DNA of 64,000 nucleotides from Natronorubrum halalkaliphilum. GTDB taxonomy: Archaea; Halobacteriota; Halobacteria; Halobacteriales; Natrialbaceae. Below the pieces are notes generated by a model, which was not told where the DNA came from, searched no databases, and saw only the letters and a list, made by a program, of their open reading frames with translations. The DNA lies in assembly GCF_009834785.1 (NCBI RefSeq), contig NZ_WUYX01000026.1, forward strand, positions 69,252 to 133,251. Reading direction: 5' to 3'. The position numbers and the translations under genes are program-made. Of this stretch, positions 13,429 to 27,852 are shown piece by piece (positions within the stretch are counted from its first letter, which is position 1; each line of letters opens with the position of its first letter).

Positions 13429-15777
13429 TCAGTCTGCCGATGCGAATCCGCCGGTACTACTCGAGTCGCTCTCACCAGTCAGTTCCATCACTGCCTCTTC
13501 GAAATGGCGCATCTCTATCGTGGTCGGAACGGCACTCTCAGCCTCGAGGGAGTCGGTGTTGATCGCTTCTTCGAGCGCGATTGTGGCCGCGCAGTCACAG
13601 ATCGCCGCCAACGTACTCCCTGAGACACCGTCTGTCTCTTTCGCGATGGTATCAAGTGCGACGTCGCCGGCGAGTGGCTTCTCTTCGGTGTGGATCTCGA
13701 GGATCTTCCAGCGGGCGGTGAGATCGGGGAGACCAACAGTTACCGGGTCACCGAGGCGCCCGTCACGGAGGACCGCGTCGTCGATCCGGTCGGGGCGGTT
13801 CGTCGCCGCGATGACGGTGACATCACCGCGGTCGGTCACCCCATCGAGCTCGGTCAGGAACTGACTGACGACGCGTTCGCCGACGGGACCAGTCGTCCCA
13901 CGTTCCGGGACGAGGCTGTCGAACTCGTCGAAAAACAACACTGTCGGTCCCGTTTCACGGGCTGTTTCGAACACCTCTCGGACTTCCGCCTCCGCACTGC
14001 CGACGGCGCCACCGAGCAATTCCGGCCCGTTGACGAGCATGAAGTTAGCCTCGGCTTCGGTGGCGACAGCGTTCGCGAGCATCGTCTTGCCCGTACCGGG
14101 CGGGCCAGCGAGGAGGACGCCCGCTCGCGGTGAGATATCCATCGCGTCGAACGAGTCGGCGTACTCAGTTGGGAGCACCGCTGCTTCGTAGAGCTGGTGT
14201 TTGACGTCTTCGAGCCCGCCGATATCGTCCCAGTTCGTTTCCGGGACGGTCACGCGATGGTCAACGAGGCCGCTTGGCTCGACGGTCTCGAGTGCTGTCT
14301 CGATATCCCCGGCGGTCACCTCACAGCGGTCGAACCAATCGATGATCTGTTCACGATCCCTCCCCGACCACTCCGTATCGAGGAGGTAGGTGACATCCAG
14401 GTTGGCGTCGTCGAGGTGGCGGCTGAACGCCTGTTGCTGAGCCGCGTCGACGACGGCTTCGATATCCGCTCCGGTGTAGCCGTGTGTGCGGGCAGCGATC
14501 GCCTCGAGGTCGACGTCGTCCGCCAGCGGGACGTCGCGGGTGTGAACACCGAATATCTCTTCGCGACCCTCCGCCGAGGGCGGGCCGACCTCGATCGTGG
14601 CCCCGAGGCGACCCGGCCGGCGTAGCGCGGGGTCGATCTGTTCGGCGTTGTTCGTCGATCCGATGACGATAACGTCGTCGTTCTCCTCGAGTCCGTCCAT
14701 GACCGAGAGGAGCTGGCCGACGACCCGTCGTTCGGTCGTGTCCGTCGGCGACGCGGTCCGGACTTGCCCGAGGCTATCGAGTTCGTCGAAGTAGATGATA
14801 CTCGGCGCGTTTGCGCGAGCGGCGTCGAACAGGTCACGGAGCCGGCGTTCGGCTTCGCCGTACCACTTGCTCATCACCTCCGGGCCGTCGATACGGTAGA
14901 AGGCGGCGTCGGTTTCGTTGGCGAGTGTCTTCGCCAGCAGCGTTTTGCCGGTGCCGGGCGGACCGCGAAGGAGGATGCCCGTCGATTGGTCGTCGCCGAG
15001 GAACGATTTGAGTTCGGGGAACGCGAACGGAAGTTCGGTGACTTCCCGGAACTGCTCGATGATGTCGTCGAGGCCGCCGATGTCGTCGTAGGTGACGTCG
15101 GCGATTTCGTCGTCGGTGAGGCGGAACTCGTTCGTACCGGCGTAGCTCCTCGAGTCATCGCCGCTGGCCGGTTCATCGTCCTCGTCAGTAGTCTCACTCG
15201 AGTACCGGTCGCCACCAGTATCGGGCTGGTACTCGTAGACGACTTCGTGGTCGTCACGGTCTGTCGAGTACGGGGCTCCGGGACCGTCGTTGTGGGCGAC
15301 GAACTCGAGAGTCGTCTCAGCTGTAATGGTAACGACCGATCCCGGAAACGTGCCGACGACGTTGGCGACCCCAGTGTTTCTGTCAATGGCGTCGATGCCG
15401 ACTAAGACGTTTTTGGAGGCGTAGACCGGACGGCCGAGTAGTGCCTCGCGGAGCTCTTGGTAGGCAGCGGACGTATCGGACAGTGACGGCGGGATCCGGA
15501 CGGTAACACGGCTGGCAGGCGTTGCGGGAACGGGCGTGATGTAGACCGTTGCACCAGGTGCGAGACTCAACGCGTTTCGGTCGGGCCGCCCGAGTGCGAC
15601 GATCCCTTCGTTCTCTCCGTCGGTCCGTGTCAAGCGCAGGAGGAGGTCTCGGTCACCGACGCTGACGGAAACGGCATCGCCGACGGAACACTCGAGGTCG
15701 GTGTAGATGTCGTCACTGACAGCGGCGATGCCTTCGGCGTTCAGTTCGGGGGAGAGTTTGGTGAGGGTGGCTTGCAT
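13429..15777 (-). CDS. Cdc48/VCP-like tandem AAA+ ATPase
   Basis: Residues 1-190 resemble the Cdc48 N-domain (double-psi barrel). D1 has Walker A GPPGTGKT at 272-279, an aromatic pore loop SKWYGE near 303-308, Walker B IIYFDE and a sensor STNN. D2 has Walker A at 558-565, Walker B VLFFDE and ATNRPD. Compared with canonical Cdc48, the D2 pore loop lacks the aromatic residue (ELLGGAVGSAE), and the second arginine of each arginine-finger segment is altered (RRPGRLGAT, RDGRLGDP). Canonical Cdc48 unfolds tagged proteins; this divergent paralogue probably works on a narrower set. It follows the 555-residue AAA+ gene by 66 bases on the same strand, so the two form an operon. Confidence 0.85.
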   Translation of the reverse strand: MQATLTKLSPELNAEGIAAVSDDIYTDLECSVGDAVSVSVGDRDLLLRLTRTDGENEGIVALGRPDRNALSLAPGATVYITPVPATPASRVTVRIPPSLSDTSAAYQELREALLGRPVYASKNVLVGIDAIDRNTGVANVVGTFPGSVVTITAETTLEFVAHNDGPGAPYSTDRDDHEVVYEYQPDTGGDRYSSETTDEDDEPASGDDSRSYAGTNEFRLTDDEIADVTYDDIGGLDDIIEQFREVTELPFAFPELKSFLGDDQSTGILLRGPPGTGKTLLAKTLANETDAAFYRIDGPEVMSKWYGEAERRLRDLFDAARANAPSIIYFDELDSLGQVRTASPTDTTERRVVGQLLSVMDGLEENDDVIVIGSTNNAEQIDPALRRPGRLGATIEVGPPSAEGREEIFGVHTRDVPLADDVDLEAIAARTHGYTGADIEAVVDAAQQQAFSRHLDDANLDVTYLLDTEWSGRDREQIIDWFDRCEVTAGDIETALETVEPSGLVDHRVTVPETNWDDIGGLEDVKHQLYEAAVLPTEYADSFDAMDISPRAGVLLAGPPGTGKTMLANAVATEAEANFMLVNGPELLGGAVGSAEAEVREVFETARETGPTVLFFDEFDSLVPERGTTGPVGERVVSQFLTELDGVTDRGDVTVIAATNRPDRIDDAVLRDGRLGDPVTVGLPDLTARWKILEIHTEEKPLAGDVALDTIAKETDGVSGSTLAAICDCAATIALEEAINTDSLEAESAVPTTIEMRHFEEAVMELTGESDSSSTGGFASAD

Positions 15778-15843
15778 GGGTGGATGGGCTCGAATTCCGT
15801 CGCCGTCGTTCAGAGACAGTACGCCGCCAACTGCAGTGAGCGA

Positions 15844-17511
15844 TCAGTAGAACCCGCCGCGGCCGGAGTCGTCGCTACTGGCCGCTGAGTCATCCACGTC
15901 GGTCGGGTAGTCCTCGAGTGCGGCCCTGATATCGTCCCGTCGGATTTCGAGCTCGTCGTCGCTGCCACCGGCGTCGGCGACACGGCGCATGGCGTACCAG
16001 CGGAGGGCGTGGTCGCAGACGCCAGTCATGGTGGCTGCGGGAACGTCGCTGTCGAACTGAGCGGCAATCCAGTCCGCGGAGACGTCGTCGGCAAACGGGT
16101 AGTCGCCGGCGTGAGACTCGATAACCGCGTTCGCTGTCTCACTGTCGGGCACTGGGACGCGGATGTGGCGTTCGAGTCGCCCGGTCCGCAGGAGGGCATC
16201 GTCAAGCGCGTGCGGGCGATTGGTCGCCCCAACGACGAGCACGTCGTCGATATCTTTGAACCCGTCCAGTTCGGCCAGGAGGGTGTTGATGAAATCGACC
16301 TCGTAGGAGGCGTGAACGTCGTTGCGGCTGGGGGCGAGCGCATCGATTTCGTCGAAAAAGACCACGCTGGGGGCGTTCTCCCGGGCGGACTCGAAGACCT
16401 TTCTGATGTTCTTTTCCGTACTGCCGACGAGGGAGTCCTGGAGTTCGGGTCCTTCGACGGTGATGAACGTCCGGTCGTACTCATTGGCGACCGCTTTTGC
16501 GAGCATGGTCTTCCCGTTACCTGGCGGTCCGTAGAGGAGGACACCGGCGGCGGCAAGGCCACACTCGTCGTAGGTTTGTGGGAACTGTTTGGGGTACTCG
16601 ATCGCGGCTTGGAGCTCGGCTTTCACCTCCTCGAGGCCACCGATATCGTCGAAGTTCACGTCCGTCTCCTCGACGAATCGGTCGTCCGTTGCATCTGCCG
16701 ACTGCGGCCCGAATCGGGAACGCGGTTTCGAGTCGGCCGTGACGGACAGGCTCTCGATGAGCGTGTCCGTCTGTACTGTCTGTTCGACACCGACAGCCAC
16801 CCGCTGGAAGGCCTGTTTGGTTCCCGTTCGGAGTTCGAGGGCGGACAAGCCCTCGACAGCCTCTTGGAGGGTTTCGTCCGTCGTGTCGACGGTGACCCCG
16901 ACATCGCTTTTCGCAGCGAACTCCTCGAGGTAGGTCTCGAGGAGCGCACACGCCCGGTCCGTGTCGGGTTCGTCGACTTCGATCGCAGCCTCGAACGGGA
17001 TCGATGACGAACTGAACGAGTCAAATGCCGTAGTCGCGATGACGAGGACTCGCGCATCGGTTTGCTCGATGCGTGCGAATTCGGCGCGGAGCGTGTTGAG
17101 CAGGTCGTCACGGTGCCACTGGTTGAACTGGTCGAGAACGAGAACACTCGGGGCGGCCGCGATGGCGTCGCGAACGGCTTGGCCCACGATCTCAGTGGCG
17201 TCTCCAGGGGTGTTCTGGAAGTGTTGTAACCAGCCGATGGAAAATCCGTCTGCGGCAAGTTCGCCACAGATGGCATCGACGAAGAGCGTCTTCCCGTTTC
17301 CGCTCGGCCCGTGAACGAGCAGGTTGGAGGTCGTGATCCCAGCATCGACCGCGAGCGGTTCGATAATGTTCCGCGCGAAGGCTTTCGAATCGGCGAGTCC
17401 GACGATGTCCTCCAGCGTCGTTTCCGGGGTCGCATCGAACGTCAGGTCGAGGTCAACGTCAGCGGGGTCGCTGTCAACCGTGGCGGGCTTGGGGGTGAAG
17501 TATTCAGACAT
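15844..17511 (-). CDS. Tandem AAA+ ATPase, partner of the Cdc48-like gene
   Basis: A 555-residue protein with two AAA+ modules and no Cdc48 N-domain. D1 (about 35-240) keeps Walker A GPSGNGKT (68-75), but its Walker B reads VLVLDQ, with Gln128 in place of the catalytic Glu; such a module would bind ATP but hydrolyse it poorly. D2 (about 285-530) is intact: IGGLEEVK entry, Walker A GPPGNGKT (328-335), Walker B VVFFDE, sensor ATNRP and RTGRLERH. The D2 pore loop is ELQDSLVGSTE, without the usual Trp/Tyr. The acidic tail ends in GRGGFY, which could be a docking peptide. It is first in a two-gene operon with the Cdc48-like gene. A hetero-oligomer of the two is an inference from adjacency. Confidence 0.82.
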   Translation of the reverse strand: MSEYFTPKPATVDSDPADVDLDLTFDATPETTLEDIVGLADSKAFARNIIEPLAVDAGITTSNLLVHGPSGNGKTLFVDAICGELAADGFSIGWLQHFQNTPGDATEIVGQAVRDAIAAAPSVLVLDQFNQWHRDDLLNTLRAEFARIEQTDARVLVIATTAFDSFSSSSIPFEAAIEVDEPDTDRACALLETYLEEFAAKSDVGVTVDTTDETLQEAVEGLSALELRTGTKQAFQRVAVGVEQTVQTDTLIESLSVTADSKPRSRFGPQSADATDDRFVEETDVNFDDIGGLEEVKAELQAAIEYPKQFPQTYDECGLAAAGVLLYGPPGNGKTMLAKAVANEYDRTFITVEGPELQDSLVGSTEKNIRKVFESARENAPSVVFFDEIDALAPSRNDVHASYEVDFINTLLAELDGFKDIDDVLVVGATNRPHALDDALLRTGRLERHIRVPVPDSETANAVIESHAGDYPFADDVSADWIAAQFDSDVPAATMTGVCDHALRWYAMRRVADAGGSDDELEIRRDDIRAALEDYPTDVDDSAASSDDSGRGGFY

Positions 17512-17768: not shown

Positions 17769-19424
17769 TCAAATCGCTAGTAGCAGCAACCAGAGCGGGA
17801 CATAGTAGATTGTATACCCGTCCTTTTCGACTTGGAGCGTTTCGGCGGTCTGGCAATCTCGTGGAACAATATCAGTCAAAACGATTCGGTATGGAGACTG
17901 GAATTCTCCTTCATCGTGGGCTGGCTGTGCGTCAGTCGGATCAAACGCTTCGACGGCCGCTGCGGCTTCGGCCGGCGTTTTCACGCCCTGATACGCCAGT
18001 GAGATCGGAACGAGCAGCGGTTCCGTATCTGATCGGATGACAAAGTCGACGAGGCCGCTCGAGGTTTCCGCGTACTCAACGTTGGAATCGTAGTTTTCGG
18101 AGAGATGAGTGAGACGTTTGAGGTGATCGAAACACACCTGCTGAGCGACTGCACTCTCGAATTCACGATTCCAGTCTGCATCGGATCCACGAAGTTGCCG
18201 TTGAGAGAAAATCGCCATATGATGTGGATCGCGGAGATACAGCCGTCCCTCTCGGTGTGATTGCAGCGAATAATCGTGCGAACGCGAGAGGACGATCGCC
18301 TGTTCGAGATAGTCGAAATAATCATCGAGCGTTCGACGATCGATCCCGGTGCTTCTGGCTAACGCAGTATAATTGATCGGCTCATCATCGGGAAGCGCGG
18401 CGGCAGCACAGAGCTTGAACAGATTCTCCGGATTTCGCAGGGAATGTTGCTCCGCCAGTGACTTGTAGACTAACAACTGCAGATTCGTACGACCTTGTTG
18501 AGCGCCGTCGTGCTGACTGTCCGTAACGGGTAGTCCACCGTGATACAGATACGTGTTCACGCCCTCCTTCAGGTTCGGTTTCAACTCGGCAATGTCCTTG
18601 TCGAAGTAGATCTCGTCGAAGGCAGCGAGACTCTGCTCGAAGCCGTCTCCCGTCCCATCTTTTAACCGCTTTCGGGCAGCTTGCAGCGGCTCTCCATCTG
18701 ATCCACCGCCTTTGTGCCGCGTTTTCACGAACGCACGGGTCTCTCCCTCTTCAGTCCGTTCGACCCAATCTGCAAACTTCTCCGGCATCAACCGAAAATG
18801 CTCGTGGTCTCCCTCGAGGATAGCGTGCTTTTCGGAATCCGCCGAAACGATAAGATACGTATTATCATACATGACGTCCAGAAGTGGCTCTTTCCAGGCG
18901 TCTGGATCGTCAGATGCGAGGACGTCGATATCGTCGACGATTATGAGATGGGCACCCTGCGTTACCTGCGTTTGCTGATACCACTCGATGACCTCTACAA
19001 ACTTCTGAATGCGCGACTCTTCCGGCAGCAGTTGATACTGACTGTCTTCAAGGGGGAGATACAGGATCTGTTCTTTCGCGAGCGCGTTCTCGAGTTCGTA
19101 ATCGCCGTTCGTTTCGCCGATCCGATCCGTGAGTTGCGCATCGGTCGACGCCAGAGCGACGTTGATGAATTTCTGTAACAGGGTCGTCTTTCCGATCCCA
19201 TACGGACCAGTGATCGTACGAGAGACGGCGGTTTTCTCGTTTGCGTCGTCAACTAACTTGGTGCTGTGAAATGACTTCACGAGATTGTAGAGGTCGGATC
19301 GTTCCTCTTTGTCTATCGTCGGGAGACCGGTATCGGCAGTTGACCGCCACCACGGGTTTTGCGCCTCTGCTTCGCTAATGAAATCCAGTGTATCGCTAAA
19401 TGAGCTGGCTAACTCTGCTGACAT
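17769..19424 (-). CDS. Archaeal ATPase of the AAA_14/DUF4143 type
   Basis: A 551-residue P-loop ATPase. Walker A GPYGIGKTT is at 73-81 and Walker B LIIVDDIDVL follows. A winged-helix-like segment (YTALARSTGIDRRTLDDYFDYL) comes next, and the C-terminal part has the restriction-endonuclease-like DUF4143 layout (SGLVDFVI then LLVPISL). In active nucleases of this fold the last element reads E-x-K; here it is P-I-S, so the site looks dead. The last residues (YYVPLWLLLLAI) are hydrophobic. DUF4143 ATPases are common and mostly unassigned. It is divergent from the orc1/cdc6 gene across a 612-base region and may belong to the same accessory module. Confidence 0.7.
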   Translation of the reverse strand: MSAELASSFSDTLDFISEAEAQNPWWRSTADTGLPTIDKEERSDLYNLVKSFHSTKLVDDANEKTAVSRTITGPYGIGKTTLLQKFINVALASTDAQLTDRIGETNGDYELENALAKEQILYLPLEDSQYQLLPEESRIQKFVEVIEWYQQTQVTQGAHLIIVDDIDVLASDDPDAWKEPLLDVMYDNTYLIVSADSEKHAILEGDHEHFRLMPEKFADWVERTEEGETRAFVKTRHKGGGSDGEPLQAARKRLKDGTGDGFEQSLAAFDEIYFDKDIAELKPNLKEGVNTYLYHGGLPVTDSQHDGAQQGRTNLQLLVYKSLAEQHSLRNPENLFKLCAAAALPDDEPINYTALARSTGIDRRTLDDYFDYLEQAIVLSRSHDYSLQSHREGRLYLRDPHHMAIFSQRQLRGSDADWNREFESAVAQQVCFDHLKRLTHLSENYDSNVEYAETSSGLVDFVIRSDTEPLLVPISLAYQGVKTPAEAAAAVEAFDPTDAQPAHDEGEFQSPYRIVLTDIVPRDCQTAETLQVEKDGYTIYYVPLWLLLLAI

Positions 19425-19885: not shown

Positions 19886-19895
19886 TTTCCGGAAA
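19886..19895. promoter_or_regulatory. TTTCCGGAAA palindrome, distal site before orc1/cdc6
   Basis: A perfect 10-bp palindrome, preceded by GGAAAT-AGCC-ATTTCC so that two overlapping inverted repeats occur. It is one of four TT(T/C)CCGGAAA-type sites noticed, all upstream of orc1/cdc6 or of the polymerase cassette. Confidence 0.5.
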
Positions 19896-19973: not shown

Positions 19974-19985
19974 GTTTCCGGAAAC
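19974..19985. promoter_or_regulatory. GTTTCCGGAAAC palindrome, proximal site before orc1/cdc6
   Basis: A perfect 12-bp palindrome. The TTTCCGGAAA core ends 53 bases before the orc1/cdc6 ATG, just upstream of the likely promoter. The polymerase cassette has TTCCCGGAAA ending 52 bases before its ATG, which suggests a shared regulator. Confidence 0.55.
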
Positions 19986-20036
19986 CACCCAGTCACGCTT
20001 TTGTAAGTTGGCGAAAAAGCAGACAGTCACTAACGT

Positions 20037-21065
20037 ATGATCCGTGATGCTCGAGTTCTACGCGCTGGGTTTGTCCCTCGAGAAGTCGAGCATCGTGACG
20101 CCGAAGTCAACCATCTCTCCAGCGTTCTCGAACCCATTACGAACGGCGAACCCGCTGACACTGCTATCGTGACCGGTCCGAGCGGAATTGGAAAGACCTG
20201 TATCTCGAAATTCGTCACCGAACGCCTTCGCGAGGAAGTCCTCGAGGTTGAAGCGACCTACGTCAACTGCTGGCGGAACTACACTCGATTTCGAACGCTC
20301 TATCAGATCCTCGACGATCTCGGAACAACGATCGACATTCACCGACAGTCAACACCTCACGACGAACTTATCGAACGGCTCCAACAGTACAACGGGCCTC
20401 GAACGGTGATTATTCTCGACGAGGCCGATCAACTCGAGGATCCCAGTGTTCTCTACGATCTCCACAGTCTCCCCCAGTTCGCGGTCATCTGTATTGCGAA
20501 CAAGGAGGAGGACCTGTTCAATCGTGTTGACGACCGACTCGTGAGTCGCCTCCGCTCGAGCGAGCACGTCCGGATGGACAAGTACCACAACGAGCAACTC
20601 TATGATATTCTGCAAACTCGAACAAAGTGGGGACTCGAACAGGACGTCGTCACGGAGGAGCAACTCTATCGGATCGCAGATGCAGCAGCTGGTGATGCTC
20701 GGCTCGCAATCGGTGTTCTTCGTTCCGCTGCGAGCAAAGCCGACCGGGAAAACCACGAGCGAATCACCGACGATGTGCTTCTTGACGCGGCGACGGATGC
20801 CCGTGCACAGATCAGGCAACGAAGCCTCGATTCGCTCACTCCTCATCAACAGGCCGTCTACAATGTCGTCCGGGACCACGGCCCCCTTGGGCCAAGTGAG
20901 ATTCACGAACACTATGTCGATGAAGTCGATGATCCCCGGACGAAGCGAACTGTTCGATCATATCTCTCGAAGATGGCCCAGTACAACCTCCTCGAGGCAG
21001 AAGGAACAAGTCGTGATCGACAGTACTCGCTTGTCGACTCAACGGCAGCCTCATCTATTCAGTGA
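20037..21065 (+). CDS. Orc1/Cdc6-family replication initiator-like ATPase
   Basis: A 342-residue AAA+ protein of the archaeal Orc1/Cdc6 family, which binds origin DNA and loads MCM. Walker A GPSGIGKT is at 47-54, Walker B VIILDEADQL near 123-132 and sensor 1 CIANKE follows. The C-terminal winged helix (about 265-340) contains TPHQQAVYNVV and SYLSKMAQYNLLE. It is shorter than most origin-linked haloarchaeal Orc proteins, as are the many plasmid or accessory paralogues. The start is the ATG at 20037. An upstream region with palindromes and no other replication gene next door leave its status open: initiator of an integrated or plasmid replicon, or an accessory Orc regulating the polymerase cassette 2.4 kb away. 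Confidence 0.88.
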   Translation: MIRDARVLRAGFVPREVEHRDAEVNHLSSVLEPITNGEPADTAIVTGPSGIGKTCISKFVTERLREEVLEVEATYVNCWRNYTRFRTLYQILDDLGTTIDIHRQSTPHDELIERLQQYNGPRTVIILDEADQLEDPSVLYDLHSLPQFAVICIANKEEDLFNRVDDRLVSRLRSSEHVRMDKYHNEQLYDILQTRTKWGLEQDVVTEEQLYRIADAAAGDARLAIGVLRSAASKADRENHERITDDVLLDAATDARAQIRQRSLDSLTPHQQAVYNVVRDHGPLGPSEIHEHYVDEVDDPRTKRTVRSYLSKMAQYNLLEAEGTSRDRQYSLVDSTAASSIQ

Positions 21066-21104
21066 AGGAGTGTCAACTCAAATAATTCTGTATTCCATCA
21101 ATAT

Positions 21105-21190
21105 AGGGTGATTATTCTCTATATTCAGAAAGCATTTCTGGGAAGATCTGAATGATATGTTCAGCTTCTGCTGAATACAGAACACGAATG
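21105..21190 (-). repeat. ~90-bp dispersed repeat, copy 3 (inverted)
   Basis: Read on the minus strand it begins CATTCGTGTTCTGTATTCAG and ends with CTGAATATAGAG, the same framework as the copies at 31668 and 32719 (TGTATTCAGCAG, ~37 bases, CTGCTGAATA-GAG). The rest of the 300-base gap before the next gene holds nothing recognised; the short minus-strand frame across it is not convincing. Confidence 0.55.
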
Positions 21191-21387
21191 TGGTACGACA
21201 CGGTATCGGATAGGGCGCGAATGTTGCACTGGATATTGGCCCAGTCAGGTCCGTTGTGATCGGTCACTCTAGAAGGTATTGGTACCGGAGTTTTCATCGA
21301 TAGTTCCGGCATCTGTCAAGCACACTGTGATATTACACCTCAATCTGCTCCAGAAGATGTAATACTGGACCTGTGTTAACGACTAGC

Positions 21388-22215
21388 ATGAAATCACCCA
21401 TCGAGGAAATCGAATTTATCGCCAGTTCGAAACACCGCGTTGGAGTTCTTGAGGCACTCGCAGAGGCTGGCCATGATCGACGCGACCTAGAGTCGAGGAC
21501 TGGAGCCCATTCCTCAACCATCGGACGTGTACTCAGTGACTTCGAAGAGCGGCGATGGATCATACGAAACGGGCCGACGTATGAACTGACACCGCTCGGT
21601 GAATTCGTCGCCGATCAGTTCGCGGAGATGTGCGACGCGATGGAAATCGAAGGAAAGCTCCGGGATGTCTGGCAGTGGCTTCCGCGGGAAATGGAAGGGT
21701 TCTCACCGGAGTTGTTTGCAGATGCCGTTATCGCCTATCCGCCTACTGGCTACCCGTACGAACCCCTCGAACGGGTCATCCAACTGTACGAAGAGAACGA
21801 CTCACTCCGCGGATTTGGGGCGACAATATTCAAAGGAGCTGCGTACGAGGTGTTCACTCGAGAGGCTCTCGACGGGATGGAAATGGAATTTATCTACCCC
21901 GCAACGTGCCTGTCAGCGATCATCAACTGGAATCCAGAACTATTCCAGCAAACGGCCAACCTGGAACATTGCAACATCCTTGTTCACGATGACCTCCCCG
22001 ACATGCGACGGTGTGGCATCGATATCTTTGATGACCGTGTCGCGATTTGCTGTCACGATCCAGAAACTAGGGCCTTCCGTGCATGGTTCGATACTGCTGC
22101 ACCCGACGCCAGAGAGTGGGCGAAATCTATCTTTCAGGAGTACCGCAGCGAGGCTCAGCCAGTCGACGAGGAAGTGTTGGCCACACCGGTACCGGAGCAA
22201 TTTACATCGCCATAG
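21388..22215 (+). CDS. Winged-helix regulator with C-terminal sensor domain (paralogue 1)
   Basis: A 275-residue haloarchaeal regulator. Residues about 8-75 form a winged helix (GVLEALAEAGHDRRDLESRT, then STIGRVLSDFEERRWI). Residues about 95-260 form a domain like the FilR1 middle domain of archaeal regulators, where FFDDR-type and LVHDDLP motifs recur. The ATG at 21388 is preferred over a GTG at 21373 because the paralogue at 27031 aligns from here, and both are preceded by GTGTTAAC. An alpha/beta hydrolase starts 111 bases downstream on the same strand and is the likely target. The ligand is unknown. Confidence 0.78.
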   Translation: MKSPIEEIEFIASSKHRVGVLEALAEAGHDRRDLESRTGAHSSTIGRVLSDFEERRWIIRNGPTYELTPLGEFVADQFAEMCDAMEIEGKLRDVWQWLPREMEGFSPELFADAVIAYPPTGYPYEPLERVIQLYEENDSLRGFGATIFKGAAYEVFTREALDGMEMEFIYPATCLSAIINWNPELFQQTANLEHCNILVHDDLPDMRRCGIDIFDDRVAICCHDPETRAFRAWFDTAAPDAREWAKSIFQEYRSEAQPVDEEVLATPVPEQFTSP

Positions 22216-22326
22216 AAGGCCAGACCGATCCGTCTATGTGTTTCGGTTGCACGCCGTGCAATATTTCACTAAATAGTCTCATTATCGCACATCTCGCCAT
22301 CCTACGTGCAGGAAGGTGGCTAACCC

Positions 22327-23166
22327 ATGACCGAATTTACAGAATCCGACACGCGAAACGAAATGGAAACTGTCACGTCTCCGGATGGGACCGAGATTGC
22401 CTACAAACGGACCGGGAGCGGACCACCGCTCGTGCTCGTCCACGGCGCGGATGTCGACCACAGGTTCTGGGACGTCTCCGGCGTTCGAGAATCCCTCGCG
22501 GAACACCACACGGTCTACGCGATGGACTGTCGCGGCCACGGCGAGAGCGAGTACCTCGGCGAGTTCGAACTGGAACAGGAGTTCGAGGACATCGTCGCGG
22601 TCGTCGACTCGGTCGACGAGCCCGTGCATCTGGTGGGGGAGTCCGGCGGCGCATTCTTCTCGCTGGAGGCCGCCCTGCGAACCGACAACGTCCGTACACT
22701 GACCCTGCATGAACCCCCCGTTCCGGGGTTCGAAGACGCTCGCGCCCGGGAGGGCTTCGAAACGATGGTCGCCATGTTGGATGAGGGGAACCGCGATCGG
22801 GCGCTGTCGACCTTCCTGGAAGGGCCCGCTGGGGTCACCCTGGAGGAAGTCGAGCAATTGCGCAACCATCCCATTTGGCCGGAGTACGTGGAGACCTTCA
22901 TCGAAACCGTGATCCCCAAGATAGAGGCTGAAGCCGAAGCCGACTACCAGTTCGACCCGGACCGCTTCGCACAGTTGACCGTCCCAACGCTGCTGTTGGC
23001 CGCCAGCGAGACCGCTGAGTGGCTTCTCGACGCAACGAACGCGGTCGCCGACGCGCTCCCGAACGCCCGGGTCGTCAGCATCGACGGATACGGCCACGGA
23101 GCAGTCGCCAGCGCACCGGACTGGTTCACGAGCGAAGTACTCGGGTTTGTGCGTGAATCGAACTGA
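22327..23166 (+). CDS. Alpha/beta-fold hydrolase
   Basis: A 279-residue hydrolase. The oxyanion-hole region is LVLVHGADVDH (35-45), the nucleophile elbow GESGG has Ser106, and the catalytic His is probably in GYGHGA near residue 257. The usual acid after strand 6 falls in the LLLAASETAEWL segment, where Glu may take the place of Asp. The length and the MDCRGHGES motif fit the esterase, epoxide-hydrolase and haloperoxidase-like branch; the substrate cannot be read from sequence. It follows the winged-helix regulator by 111 bases in the same direction and may be induced or repressed by it. Confidence 0.85.
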   Translation: MTEFTESDTRNEMETVTSPDGTEIAYKRTGSGPPLVLVHGADVDHRFWDVSGVRESLAEHHTVYAMDCRGHGESEYLGEFELEQEFEDIVAVVDSVDEPVHLVGESGGAFFSLEAALRTDNVRTLTLHEPPVPGFEDARAREGFETMVAMLDEGNRDRALSTFLEGPAGVTLEEVEQLRNHPIWPEYVETFIETVIPKIEAEAEADYQFDPDRFAQLTVPTLLLAASETAEWLLDATNAVADALPNARVVSIDGYGHGAVASAPDWFTSEVLGFVRESN

Positions 23167-23320
23167 CGGTTCAGCAACCGTCTCCGATCTTCCACAGGGT
23201 CCGTTTTTGCTGACTATATCTTCTATACTCAGCAGGCCGTTTTTGACGCCTATCCGAGAGATCGGAAACTGCTCCGGTAACGTGTTCGCCTGTACTGACT
23301 GTTCACTGATTCAGGAACCC

Positions 23321-23330
23321 TTCCCGGAAA
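23321..23330. promoter_or_regulatory. TTCCCGGAAA site, distal, before the polymerase cassette
   Basis: This motif matches the TTTCCGGAAA sites before orc1/cdc6 with one base changed. It lies 119 bases before the first cassette ATG and 67 bases from the proximal copy. Confidence 0.45.
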
Positions 23331-23387
23331 CGACAGCCGAAATTCGGACAACGGGTGTAGAGCAGTGAATTTCCCCGTTTAGTAGTA

Positions 23388-23397
23388 TTCCCGGAAA
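23388..23397. promoter_or_regulatory. TTCCCGGAAA site, proximal, before the polymerase cassette
   Basis: It ends 52 bases before the ATG at 23449, just upstream of a TATA-like TTATTGAAA at 23420-23428. Its position matches the proximal palindrome of orc1/cdc6 to within one base. Confidence 0.55.
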
Positions 23398-23448
23398 TGC
23401 GGAAGCGACACGCTTCGGCTTATTGAAAGAGCGAGTGTCTAGTCGAGT

Positions 23449-24396
23449 ATGCCTAGAAACGACACGTCAACATCGAATCGGTTTGTGGCCGATCGACAGA
23501 CTCGAGGTGCCGATCGCAATCGTGACCTTGTCAAGCGAGCTGACCCGGCAAGCGATGATCTCCTACTACCTTCCCTCGAGGACGGCATTACGCTCCTGGA
23601 CATCGACGGCAACCGCGGGGTTCCAATTTTGCAGTCGCTCGTCCTCGATCATCTACTCCTACACGATGGGGCTGCCTTTTGGGTTGATGGAAATGGTCAC
23701 GCTACGACGACTGCACTCGCTCGGATCGCACCCAGTCAGCGGTTACTTGATCGGATCAACGTCGCTCGCGGTTTCACTGCGTATCAACACTACGGCGCAA
23801 TCTGTGCTCTCCCGAAGGCGATGAATCGGTCAATCCAGCAGTCGACAACCGATTCGAACGCATCACGTCAACGGAGAGCAAATCGCGACGAGGCCTCCTC
23901 CCATACGCCCTCACTTCTCGTGGTTCCAGCGGTCGACGTGCAGTATCGGAGCGATGAGACACTCCGAGGAACACAGGCGGAGACTCTCCAGGCCCGAACA
24001 CTCGCGCGATTGGCGACCTATGCCGAAGGGTACGATATCCCCGTACTCGTCACCCGCAGTAGGAACGACGAATTTACGGCTTCGATCGAGACCGCTGCTG
24101 ACCGTCATCTGAGGTGTGAGCAAACTCGAATGGGACCGCGGTTCGTGGGCGATGAGTTCGAGACGCTCGTATACCCGGTTGGCGACGGCACGTACTATCA
24201 GACCACGTTCGCGTATTGGCAACAGCTGCTCAGTGCTCGAGCAAAGCAACTCGGTATAGAGCCGGTAACTCCGTCGGCTTCAGCGGAGAGCGCTGGAGGC
24301 GTCGGGGCTGGCGTAACTGCCGGCGGTGAGACGACAACGCTCAGTGTGAATCCACTGCTCGATGCGTGGACTGCGGCTGGTACAGGAGGGCGATAG
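23449..24396 (+). CDS. RecA/RadA-like protein with a lost P-loop (cassette gene 1)
   Basis: A 315-residue protein laid out like a RecA-superfamily core. GITLLDIDGNRGVPI stands where Walker A should be, GAAFWVDGNGH resembles the strand that carries the first acidic residue in RadA, INVARGFTAYQHYGAI parallels the VAYARAF segment, and SLLVVPAVDVQY stands where Walker B would be. The Lys-Thr of Walker A is absent, so ATP binding is probably lost. A Gly/Ala/Thr-rich segment near the C-terminus is a flexible linker. The gene is first of three tightly packed genes ending in a family-B polymerase, an order reminiscent of bacterial ImuA plus polymerase mutagenesis cassettes. The RecA relationship is inferred by pattern only. 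Confidence 0.6.
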   Translation: MPRNDTSTSNRFVADRQTRGADRNRDLVKRADPASDDLLLPSLEDGITLLDIDGNRGVPILQSLVLDHLLLHDGAAFWVDGNGHATTTALARIAPSQRLLDRINVARGFTAYQHYGAICALPKAMNRSIQQSTTDSNASRQRRANRDEASSHTPSLLVVPAVDVQYRSDETLRGTQAETLQARTLARLATYAEGYDIPVLVTRSRNDEFTASIETAADRHLRCEQTRMGPRFVGDEFETLVYPVGDGTYYQTTFAYWQQLLSARAKQLGIEPVTPSASAESAGGVGAGVTAGGETTTLSVNPLLDAWTAAGTGGR

Positions 24397-24398
24397 CG

Positions 24399-24704
24399 AT
24401 GGGCCGAACCAACCCGACGTACCGGGACGCGCTCCGAGCTATCGAGGAGCGGTGGACGGAGTTCCGGCGAGTGCTTCGGCGTCGTGATCAGCCTCGCTTC
24501 GACCAGTTGTTCGAGTACGCTCGCGAGCATGCTGATGCCGGCGGACTCCTGAACCACCAAAATCCACTACTACCGGCGCTGCTCAGCGTGGATCTCGAGC
24601 AAGAGGCTCGTCTGGATGCACACGAAGAACGCCTCGAGGAACTCGAGGCTGCGCTCGACGAAAGAGACGGCCGAGAGGCCGATTTGCGTGAGAGAGACGA
24701 ATAG
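24399..24704 (+). CDS. Small acidic coiled-coil protein (cassette gene 2)
   Basis: A 101-residue protein from the ATG at 24399; a longer frame from 24366 overlaps gene 1. The choice rests on a GGAGGG ribosome-binding site at 24385-24390 and on a two-base gap after gene 1. The N-terminal half is basic and helical (RTNPTYRDALRAIEERW, FRRVLRRRDQ); the C-terminal third is a strongly acidic coiled coil (LDAHEERLEELEAAL). No known domain was recognised. It lies between the RecA-like gene and the polymerase with gaps of two bases on each side, so it is surely co-translated and may bridge the two. Confidence 0.78.
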   Translation: MGRTNPTYRDALRAIEERWTEFRRVLRRRDQPRFDQLFEYAREHADAGGLLNHQNPLLPALLSVDLEQEARLDAHEERLEELEAALDERDGREADLRERDE

Positions 24705-24706
24705 CC

Positions 24707-26860
24707 ATGCCCTTCACGATCGATTTCCTCGATGATGGCCGCGTCCTCGAGTGGGAACCAACGCCAGACGGTGCCGTCGTGACCGAGTGTGATGAGTACA
24801 CACCGCGTTTCTACGTTGCACCTCGCTCGCCTGAAAGAGATCTCGATCTTTCGAAACTCCGGGCAGTCTACGATCGACATCCTGACGTCGTCTCAACCGA
24901 GATTCGTTCCCGACGACCCGGCTTTCGACGTGCTGAGGGACCTGTCCTGGCTGTCGACGTTGTCCACATCGATCGAGTTACTGCGCTTGCTAACCGGACT
25001 CGACAGCTGTCCGAATATCCGATTGGCGACCTCGCCTTCTTCAACGTTGACTTCTCTCGAGAATTCCGGTACTGCTTGGAGAGGGGAATCGATCCGATAC
25101 CGACGGCAGACCTATCGAGACTCCGTCTCGGCGTACCGCTGACGGAAGCAGGCGATGAGACATACGCTGAACTGTCCGTCGCTGGGGAGACGGTCAGCGG
25201 TCAACCAGCGGATATCCTGACCGCGGTTCAAACCGCGCTCGAGAGACGCGATCCGGATATCCTGGTCTGCTCGACGAGCGAGATCATTCCGACGCTGTAC
25301 GGGATGGCCGCGACTGCCGGTGTCGACGACTTTTCCCTGAGTCGGTGGCCCGATATCGACTACCAGCAACTCGCAAGTCAGTCGACGTACTCGAGTTACG
25401 GCCGGGTCGGCCATTCTCCCGCTCGATATAACGTCCCTGGAAGAGCGATTATCGACGAGTCGAACACGTTCTTCTACGACGAGACAAATCTTGATGGCGT
25501 CCTCGATCTCGTCTCGCGCTCGAAGAAACCCGTTCAAGAACTCGCCTGGGCATCGATCGGAAACGTTCTCACGGCGATCCAGATTTGTGAGGCTCACGAC
25601 CGCGGCGTCCTCGTGCCCTGGAACTCCTGGCGACATGAATTCTATAAATCAATGGGAACACTCCACGACGCCGACCGCGGGGGATTCATTTTCGCACCGG
25701 AAGTTGGATTTCACGAGGACGTTCACGAACTCGATTTCTCGAGTCTGTATCCGAACATCATCTGTACGCGAAACGTTTCTCCGGACGTTATCCGATGTGA
25801 GTGTCATCGTGACCGCGACGATGTCCCTGGACTCGGTTACTCGATCTGTGACGAGCGCGGCTATCTCGTCGACGTCCTCGAGCCGATAATCGACGCCCGC
25901 GATGAGATCAAAGCCGCCATCGGCCGCGAACAGCAGTGTGACGATCCCGATGAAAACCGACTCACAGAACTCGAGGGACGATCGGCGGCGCTAAAGTGGA
26001 TCCTCGTTGCCTGCTTTGGGTACCAGGGGTTCAGCAACGCGAAGTTCGGTCGAATTGAATGCCACGAGGCGATCAACGCGTTCGCTCGAGAAATTCTGCT
26101 GACGGCCAAGCAACGTCTGGAAGCCGGCGGATGGCGAGTCGTTCACGGCATCGTTGATTCGATCTGGGTGACCCCAGACCCGAACGGTGACGAAGGCGAT
26201 CGGACCGATCTCGAGACGCTCTCGAGTGAGATTTCGGCGGCCGTAGATATCCGACTCGAACACGAAGCCCGCTACGACTGGGTCGCGTTCGTCCCGCAAC
26301 GCGAGGGTACCGCCGGTGCGTTGACGAAGTACTTCGGGAAGGTCGATGGCGAAGATGAATTCAAGATCAGAGGCATCGAAGCGCGGCAGCGATCGACGCC
26401 GACATTCATCGAGGACGTCCAACGGACATGTCTCGAACGCCTCGATGCAACCCGATCACCAGCGGCCGTGCTCAGCCATCTCGAGACTGCAATCGAGAAC
26501 CTTCGTTCGGGAGATATCGCGGTAGAACAACTAGTCGAGAGAAATCGCGTCTCCAAACCGCTCGAAGGGTACACGCAAAACACACAGAACGTGGCGGCGC
26601 TGAAACGTGCCCGTGATCAGGGTCTTGCCGTCCATCCAGGACAGGACGTTGAATACGTGGTCGTCGACGACGAGAAGGATTCGAGGGAGCGGGTTGCATT
26701 GGCTCACGAAGAGAGCAAGTCGTATGATCCGTCGTACTACGAAACGGAACTCGTCCGAGCCGTCGAGAGTGTACTTTCACCGCTGGGGTGGGAAGAGACA
26801 GACATTCAACGAGAACTTGGCGAGACTCGAGAAACGGATCTGACGAGTTTCACTGGATGA
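24707..26860 (+). CDS. Divergent family-B DNA polymerase (cassette gene 3)
   Basis: A 717-residue DNA polymerase B. Motif A is LDFSSLYPNII with catalytic Asp343, motif B is KWILVACFGY (430-439) with the usual Asn-Ser replaced, and motif C is HGIVDS (480-485). Motif C keeps the second Asp (484), the metal ligand in known structures, but has Ile where the first Asp of DTD stands. The 3'-5' exonuclease domain (about 80-300) lacks the acidic DIE motif and the Asp of NxxxFD (here CSTSEIIP), so proofreading is probably lost. Short for a replicative PolB. A proofreading-less PolB next to a RecA-like partner suggests translesion or repair synthesis rather than replication; activity itself is uncertain. 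Confidence 0.85.
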   Translation: MPFTIDFLDDGRVLEWEPTPDGAVVTECDEYTPRFYVAPRSPERDLDLSKLRAVYDRHPDVVSTEIRSRRPGFRRAEGPVLAVDVVHIDRVTALANRTRQLSEYPIGDLAFFNVDFSREFRYCLERGIDPIPTADLSRLRLGVPLTEAGDETYAELSVAGETVSGQPADILTAVQTALERRDPDILVCSTSEIIPTLYGMAATAGVDDFSLSRWPDIDYQQLASQSTYSSYGRVGHSPARYNVPGRAIIDESNTFFYDETNLDGVLDLVSRSKKPVQELAWASIGNVLTAIQICEAHDRGVLVPWNSWRHEFYKSMGTLHDADRGGFIFAPEVGFHEDVHELDFSSLYPNIICTRNVSPDVIRCECHRDRDDVPGLGYSICDERGYLVDVLEPIIDARDEIKAAIGREQQCDDPDENRLTELEGRSAALKWILVACFGYQGFSNAKFGRIECHEAINAFAREILLTAKQRLEAGGWRVVHGIVDSIWVTPDPNGDEGDRTDLETLSSEISAAVDIRLEHEARYDWVAFVPQREGTAGALTKYFGKVDGEDEFKIRGIEARQRSTPTFIEDVQRTCLERLDATRSPAAVLSHLETAIENLRSGDIAVEQLVERNRVSKPLEGYTQNTQNVAALKRARDQGLAVHPGQDVEYVVVDDEKDSRERVALAHEESKSYDPSYYETELVRAVESVLSPLGWEETDIQRELGETRETDLTSFTG

Positions 26861-26971: not shown

Positions 26972-27030
26972 AACAACTGTGACGTGAGCAGGGGGCAATC
27001 GTTTTCACAGTTGTTGGTGTACTCTAATTG

Positions 27031-27852
27031 ATGGGTGTTAACATGGACCACTATAGGCAAGACTCACCGATTGGAGACGTCGCGTATTTAACCCGGTCCG
27101 AACATCGCGTCCCGACGCTTGTCGCGTTGACAGACCGTCCCCGGAGTCGCTCCGAACTCTGCGAGTTGACCGGGGTGTCGTCGTCTACCATCCGCCGGAC
27201 GCTAACCGAATTCGGAGACCGAAACTGGATCCGGAAAGAAGGATACCAGTTCGTGGCAACGACTCTGGGAGAGGGTATCGCCTCCGGGATGGAGGACCTG
27301 CTCGAACGAGTCGAAGCCGAACGGAAGTTGCGTGACGTGTGGCACTGGCTTCCGGACGATGTGATCGAGTTCACGATCGAGATGAGCTCGGAGATGACGG
27401 TGACCGTCGCCGACCACGACGCGCCGTACCGTCCGATTGGACGATTCAGGTCGTTGCTCCAGGATGCCGATCGATTTCGGTTTCTTGGAGTCGACATCGC
27501 CTTGCTCGAGCCCTGCCGGGAGGAATTCCGTCAGCAGGTCCTCGGCGGAATGCAGGCTGAAATCATTAATCCGCCGAACGCCGCCAGATACGTTCTTTCG
27601 ACGTACCCCGAACTCTGCTCGGACATCCTCGAAAGCGGCAATCTGAATCCGCTCGTCCACGACGATGTGCCTCCCTACGGGCTCAGCTTCTTCGACGACC
27701 GAATCGCTGTGAACGATTACGACCCCGACAGCGCAGGAGTTGAGGTGTTGATCGACACCGACACGCCGGCGGCAGACGAGTGGGCAGAATCGGTGTACAC
27801 GACATACAGAGCCGAGGCTCGACCGCTCGAATATCAACAGCTCATCGGATGA
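27031..27852 (+). CDS. Winged-helix regulator with C-terminal sensor domain (paralogue 2)
   Basis: A 273-residue paralogue of the regulator at 21388. Both have the same length, a winged helix (VALTDRPRSRSELCELTGVS, STIRRTLTEFGDRNWI), a conserved EAERKLRDVWHWLPDD linker, and a C-terminal sensor with LVHDDVPPYG and FFDDRIAV. The start is the ATG at 27031; the ATG at 27043 and a TTG at 27028 are alternatives. It is followed after 158 bases by the OsmC-like and methyltransferase genes on the same strand, which are its likely targets. As with its paralogue, the effector is unknown. Confidence 0.78.
   Translation: MGVNMDHYRQDSPIGDVAYLTRSEHRVPTLVALTDRPRSRSELCELTGVSSSTIRRTLTEFGDRNWIRKEGYQFVATTLGEGIASGMEDLLERVEAERKLRDVWHWLPDDVIEFTIEMSSEMTVTVADHDAPYRPIGRFRSLLQDADRFRFLGVDIALLEPCREEFRQQVLGGMQAEIINPPNAARYVLSTYPELCSDILESGNLNPLVHDDVPPYGLSFFDDRIAVNDYDPDSAGVEVLIDTDTPAADEWAESVYTTYRAEARPLEYQQLIG

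Follow-up and report, generated by a model that had tools for sequence, protein, structure and literature searches.

The 64-kb stretch of the Natronorubrum halalkaliphilum genome studied here (the window) carries an Orc/Cdc6-family gene, orc2 (20037..21065), followed by a gene cassette for a type B DNA polymerase of the PolB2 group, whose promoter lies 2.4 kb downstream. We conclude that Orc2 is likely an autoregulating transcription factor of the PolB2 mutasome rather than a replication initiator, working much as Orc1-2 does in Sulfolobus. This reading rests on sequence comparison and on analogy, and it centers on a promoter element, here termed the Orc2 box, that is common to the two promoters and conserved across haloarchaeal families. 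That one regulator serves both genes had already been suggested in the original prediction; the suggestion stands insofar as the element is shared and its most plausible reader is the linked Orc, but not on the ground of equal spacing first given for it. Our search of the literature, which lay mostly outside subscription papers, turned up neither a description of the Orc2 box nor a haloarchaeal damage-response master regulator. Window coordinates refer to the + strand unless otherwise stated, and G, L, and C numbers designate genomes, loci, and contigs.

An operator shared by the orc2 and PolB2 cassette promoters

Two TTTCCGGAAA palindromes precede orc2, at 19886..19895 and, 89 bp farther downstream, at 19975..19984, and two TTCCCGGAAA palindromes precede the cassette, at 23321..23330 and 23388..23397. 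The proximal copies end 53 bases upstream of the orc2 ATG (20037) and 52 bases upstream of the cassette ATG (23449); these positions, the distal copies at 19886 and 23321, and both spacings were correctly given in the original prediction. The general form TTNCCGGAAA has 6 strand-hits in the window, compared to 0.40 ± 0.68 expected, and none of 100 shuffles reached 6. Nor does it occur at random frequency in the genome as a whole (4.56 Mb in 72 contigs), where 29 strand-hits (23 sites) compare to 5 for the reversed control. This is a moderate enrichment, however, and the majority of the 19 further sites lie within open reading frames (ORFs). The bare 10-mer is thus weakly specific across the genome, and we discarded it as a regulon finder because the pattern is too short and most of its other matches are intragenic. 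We judge the box to be real because it is conserved and held in a fixed register, rather than from counts of the bare motif. Perfect TTTCCGGAAA copies occur elsewhere in the window's genome (G000) before a MarR/HTH-type gene (C43:10393), near a BAT/HTH_10-type regulator (C43:25529), and before an IclR gene (C50:14451); the loci concerned are L009, L010, and L015.

Conservation is evident at 80 named haloarchaeal loci whose Orc orthologues are 81-87% identical to that of the window. All 80 orthologous orc promoters carry a TTCCGGAA- or TTCTGGAA-type box that ends 46-54 bp upstream of the ATG, so the box has not been lost upstream of the homologous genes in relatives. A conservation profile was built from 32 dereplicated promoters with <55% identity outside the box, aligned by anchoring on the box, with no promoter discarded. 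It lies at ~0.1 bit per base upstream, rises to ~2 bits from the first T of TTTCCGGAA, and continues beyond the box via C-ACCC-GGTCACG up to TTTTA. The corresponding part of the window promoter is the stretch CCACCCAGTCACGC with the TATA-like TTTTGTAA (19985..20006), in which TTTT starts 19 bp after the GGAA at 19980; whichever the clade, almost all orc2 promoters keep this spacing at 18-19 bp. Of 79 orc promoters, 69 also have distal copies (1.2 expected), frequently as tandems and for the most part 82-96 bp upstream. The box is retained at orc2 in genomes that have no close cassette (G007, G020, and G064), as autoregulation predicts.

The polymerase gene of the cassette, polB2 (24707..26860), matches NCBIfam NF004418 with 1371 bits against a cut-off of 692 and also matches Pfam DNA_pol_B. 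Its motif C reads HGIVDS and is thus without the first aspartate of the usual DTD. Directly upstream of polB2 is the arCOG07300-type gene2, PPB2 (24399..24704), the translation of which begins MGRTNPTYRDAL, that is, with the MGRT N terminus described as a PPB2 motif (PMC11791011). The first gene (23449..24396) has no Pfam or NCBIfam match; its position, its size, and the gene order fit iRadA (inactivated RadA-like), and it is therefore a putative subunit of the PolB2 mutasome. The RadA similarity of such a diverged arCOG is detectable solely by sensitive methods (PMC4104785). The order iRadA-PPB2-PolB2 is that of the PolB2 mutasome operon (PMC4104785, PMC11791011).

Comparison with relatives alters how the cassette promoter should be read. 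Their iRadA promoters have TTCTCGGAAAC where the window has its distal TTCCCGGAAA, and a proximal TTYCCTGAAAC-GC-GGAAGCGACACGCC...TTATCGG, so that the proximal box usually begins with TTYCCTGAAAC and not with TTCCCGGAAA. In the window this proximal box is a tandem: the TTCCCGGAAA palindrome at 23388..23397 is its upstream unit (GGAA at 23393, 27 bp before TTAT), and GCGGAAGCGAC at 23399..23409 is its TATA-proximal unit (GGAA at 23401, 19 bp before the TTAT of the TATA-like TTATTGAA at 23420..23427). In the register common to both promoters, GGAA(R)C precedes a TATA-like TTWT by 19 bp, counted from 19980 at orc2 and from 23401 at iRadA; this register holds in 40 of 40 scored iRadA promoters and in 14 of 15 scored polB genes with separate promoters. 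By this register, the counterpart of the proximal orc2 box is evidently the degenerate unit at 23401 and not the palindrome at 23388. Because that palindrome is the upstream member of a tandem, we consider the equal distance from palindrome to ATG to be incidental: the 53 and 52 bases are as predicted, but the equal spacing is not the operative feature.

Where the operon has been split, the box goes with the mutasome genes. In 16 loci polB is set apart from PPB2, and in 15 of these a separate polB promoter bears a box of this kind; where iRadA and gene2-polB form separate units (G013 and G014), a TTYCCGGAANTTTCCGGAA tandem stands at both. On plasmid pNG600 of Haloarcula marismortui, boxes precede RR_RS02255 (Orc2), RR_RS02230 (iRadA), and RR_RS02215 (polB), and on pNRC200 of Halobacterium NRC-1 a box precedes polB2 (VNG_RS11805). 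The polB2 and orc4 genes of NRC-1 are non-essential, and a 2007 paper noted that orc and polB2 are linked in Halobacterium and Haloarcula and called the function of this linkage unknown (PMC1906834). Elsewhere in G000, a degraded PolB2 remnant adjoins a full-length initiator-type orc gene (C34:56347-59064; loci L239, L021, and L035).

Orc2 and the pairing of box type with Orc clade

Orc2 is a 342-residue AAA+ protein with a C-terminal winged helix. It matches Cdc6_lid, TIGR02928, and, over nearly its full length, DNA-bound Orc1 (2v1u), and it has a Walker A motif GPSGIGKT, a Walker B motif LDEAD, and winged-helix helices at residues 269-315 followed by the wing. Its AlphaFold model has a pLDDT of 88, with the winged helix confidently predicted, and the top structural matches are DNA-bound Orc1 proteins (2qby and 2v1u). 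R326 and R328 are nearly invariant in the haloarchaeal Orc2 family. Their R-x-R spacing equals that of R381 and R383, one pair of winged-helix residues mutated in Sulfolobus Orc1-2 (PMC9738581), a suggestive parallel that does not come from direct alignment. In the Orc tree, Orc2 of the window is separate from the 8 initiator-type Orcs of its genome that could be placed; none of those 8 has a box, and boxes are found solely within the Orc2 clade. Given this separation, and given that the box does not have the G-string of origin recognition boxes (ORBs), Orc2 is probably not a replication initiator, as it had earlier been labeled, but a transcription factor.

The specificity of the box was assessed by scanning 125 genomes of the family. 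The pattern GGAARCRACMC-N8-TTWTNG has 26 matches (control, 0), of which 9 lie before orc2, 11 before iRadA, and 3 before polB; two of the remainder are orthologous sites that are apparently coding, and one is unexplained. We rejected TTTCCGGAARCNAC as a scan pattern because it is less specific, with 57 matches, many of which fall on recurring TTTCCGGAAGCTAC-type sites and not at orc2. Another Orc2 clade, for the most part chromosomal and ~49% identical, carries a box of its own at the corresponding position, TTTCGGAA-N-TTTCGGAA, in the form of TTTCGGAA-N-(T/A)TTCGGAA-type tandems. Its pattern, TTTCGGAANTTTCGGAA, also has 26 matches with 0 in the control, every one of them 44-46 bp ahead of an orc2-type gene (17 checked on the DNA sequence and 9 from coordinates). 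Of the damage or replication-stress regulon envisaged earlier, nothing broad was found in these scans: the specific patterns are nearly confined to orc2, iRadA, PPB2, and polB2 promoters and, in one genome, integrase genes. In G104, genes encoding a phage-integrase N-terminal domain have chromosomal-type boxes, TCGGAACTATCGGAA, nearby (L205:1501, L208:1501/1576, and L211:1501/1576); L208 and L211 have two, 75 bp apart. The arrangement looks as though the Orc2 switch had been linked to a mobile element.

The two box types sort with the Orc clades at the cassette as well. At least two WTCGGAA units are found in 23 of 30 chromosomal-type iRadA promoters versus 0 of 71 of the plasmid type, and the other box type is found in 62 of 71 plasmid-type versus 4 of 30 chromosomal-type promoters. 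Only 2 changes are needed to place the box types on the Orc tree. The recognition helix and wing likewise differ by clade, as RTKRTVR/GTSRDR versus KTNRTLR/GERRGR, and in the window's genome alone, the three Orc2 paralogues each have a different box.

Proposed mechanism and alternative explanations

We propose that the palindromes are units of a promoter operator that would be read by the winged helix of Orc2, which would in this way act on two promoters, its own and the one that serves the iRadA-PPB2-PolB2 cassette. The distal copies might allow cooperative binding or looping. On the model of Sulfolobus Orc1-2, DNA damage would switch on ATP-bound Orc2, which would increase the amounts of both Orc2 itself and the PolB2 translesion mutasome. 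Archaeal activators typically bind directly upstream of the transcription factor B recognition element (BRE) and TATA box, and we favor activation because the Orc2 box is so placed. Relatives differ in the genes that separate orc2 from the cassette, which leaves Orc2 as the constant one among the DNA-binding proteins encoded there. We infer binding by Orc2, activation over repression, and induction by damage, the last from the biology of PolB2 and Orc1-2 in Sulfolobus.

Several observations weigh against this proposal. Co-inheritance of gene and promoter accounts for part of the match between clade and box, although it would not readily explain why two separate promoters have switched together. 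A few orc2 genes have no recognisable box (L091, L092, L097, L178, and L179), and one genome (G049) has a cassette box but no close Orc2 match at E<=1e-100. The haloarchaeal operator, whether the TTTCCGGAAAC palindrome or the TTTCGGAA tandem, differs from the DNA damage-responsive element (DDRE) of Sulfolobus, ANTTTC: in the box profile no A is conserved two bases before TTTC, and the conserved box is TTTCCGGAAAC. For this reason, our claim is that Orc2 may work like Orc1-2, not that its box is a DDRE. Finally, the accessible parts of the ultraviolet (UV) induction studies of Halobacterium make no mention of orc or polB2 among the induced genes.

We think it unlikely that some other regulator, encoded elsewhere, binds the boxes and has orc2 and the PolB2 cassette as two of its targets. 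Haloarchaea are rich in helix-turn-helix regulators, a distinct UV-B motif, TTTCACTTTCA, is known at radA1 of Halobacterium (PMC2556686), the connection of Orc2 to this DNA is itself deduced from sequence, and G049 keeps a cassette box with no close Orc2 match. However, a single global regulator leaves unexplained why plasmid-type and chromosomal-type cassettes each follow their own Orc clade. In one genome, that of the window, two or three box types can coexist, each preceding a different Orc2 paralogue, and the specific patterns match almost nothing besides orc2, iRadA, and polB2. The FilR1-like regulator encoded at 21373, between orc2 and the cassette, was set aside as a candidate because it is missing from the loci of relatives. 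It is less probable still that the boxes are ORBs of an orc-adjacent replication origin. Such origins are widespread in haloarchaea, with ORBs linked to their own Orc (PMC3528665), and the dyad resembles ORB-like sequence upstream of the initiator-type orc genes of this genome, e.g., TTTCACCGGAAACGTGG; yet the box has no G-string, is fixed in register to the TATA box, and also precedes separated polB and gene2 units that do not adjoin orc2. Moreover, orc intergenic regions of H. hispanica without ORBs gave no autonomous replication (PMC3528665), which bears on the Orc2 box if those genes are of the Orc2 type.

A variant in which Orc2 represses both promoters until damage occurs seems rather unlikely to us. 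Autoregulation together with a damage-inducible cassette is the logic of LexA, which adjoins bacterial PolB2 operons (PMC4104785), but the box lies upstream of BRE/TATA with no overlap with the TATA box or the start, and the characterised relative, Orc1-2, activates Dpo2 (PMC9738581). If Orc2 is instead the activator that we propose, the damage regulon of Orc1-2 would extend from Sulfolobus to the Euryarchaeota, and Orc2 would exemplify an initiator fold turned into an inducible regulator of a translesion polymerase. A wider idea is offered tentatively, as one we doubt more than we trust: Orc2-type proteins may be orthogonal archaeal transcription factors in which each paralogue reads a separate GGAA-dyad operator. 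Their control of the PolB2 translesion mutasome would predate the split of Crenarchaeota and Euryarchaeota, and the system would be an archaeal equivalent of the LexA-polymerase circuit that arose from a replication-initiator fold and that plasmids have carried from genome to genome. The many orc paralogues of haloarchaea are largely unexplained, and an operator with precise targets and clade variants bears on them.

Neighboring genes and known systems

An SRAP gene (HMCES-like, abasic-site protection) lies convergently behind orc2 in ~38 of the loci L098-L177 (e.g., L165:12841-13155) and in L241 (3202-3891) but is absent there in the window. Only 1 of 38 has a match to the Orc2 box at SRAP, and we therefore left the gene out of the proposed regulon. 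The plasmid loci of relatives, though not the window, also contain an element of 40-43 bp, TTAACCAACA-N(20-23)-TGTTGGTTAA, with near-perfect arms and a variable middle (153 complete pairs; 297 half-sites versus ~6 expected). Such elements mark module boundaries: they precede iRadA, polB, and SRAP, follow polB closely, and separate cargo genes. They are present in L098-L177 (e.g., L099:11816, L100:13432, and L111:14030), L241 (6846, 8773, 15290, and 18721), and L240 (7091), and may serve in recombination or as a second operator. In the window, two FilR1-like regulators (HVO_A0261_N plus FilR1_middle), both absent from relatives' loci, are encoded at 21373-22215 between orc2 and the cassette and at 27028-27852 behind it. 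On the minus strand, not far from orc2, are two adjacent AAA+ ATPase-like genes of the Cdc48/VAT kind (13429-17511; 782 and 555 residues by ORF) and a gene for a 551-residue AAA_14/DUF4143 ATPase (17769-19424), which is divergent from orc2 over an intergenic region of ~600 bp.

Among known elements, the UV-B motif of Halobacterium radA1, TTTCACTTTCA, is likewise a short sequence just upstream of the TATA box at damage-induced haloarchaeal genes (PMC2556686), but it is a direct TTTCA repeat at other genes (radA1 and top6B) and has no GGAA dyad. The Orc2 box shares with haloarchaeal ORBs a TTTC/GGAAAC dyad beside an orc gene and a family-specific pairing of box and Orc (PMC3528665). It differs in having neither an ORB-type spacer nor a G-string: one or two boxes are locked to the TATA box, followed by ACCCRGTCACG and TATA, and they occur at polymerase (polB) promoters as well. 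The cassette resembles the described PolB2 mutasome operon (PolB2-iRadA-PPB2) in gene order, in the MGRT start of PPB2, and in the proximity of an arORC2 or orc1-cdc6 gene (PMC4104785, PMC11791011), arORC2 being the name given to the euryarchaeal neighbors of PolB2 (PMC4104785). Those papers, in their accessible parts, treat gene neighborhoods and complexes and do not describe a shared operator. The closest parallel is Orc1-2 (Cdc6-2) of Sulfolobus/Saccharolobus, which activates Dpo2 (PolB2) as well as binding to the promoter of its own gene (PMC9738581); cdc6-2 and DpoII are co-induced by UV in Sulfolobus (PMC2246294). Both are Orc/Cdc6 proteins with AAA+, lid, and winged-helix domains, both have an element in their own promoter, and PolB2, the target of Orc1-2, would also be that of Orc2, whereas the Orc2 system is haloarchaeal, often plasmid-borne, and has a much narrower set of targets among those found.

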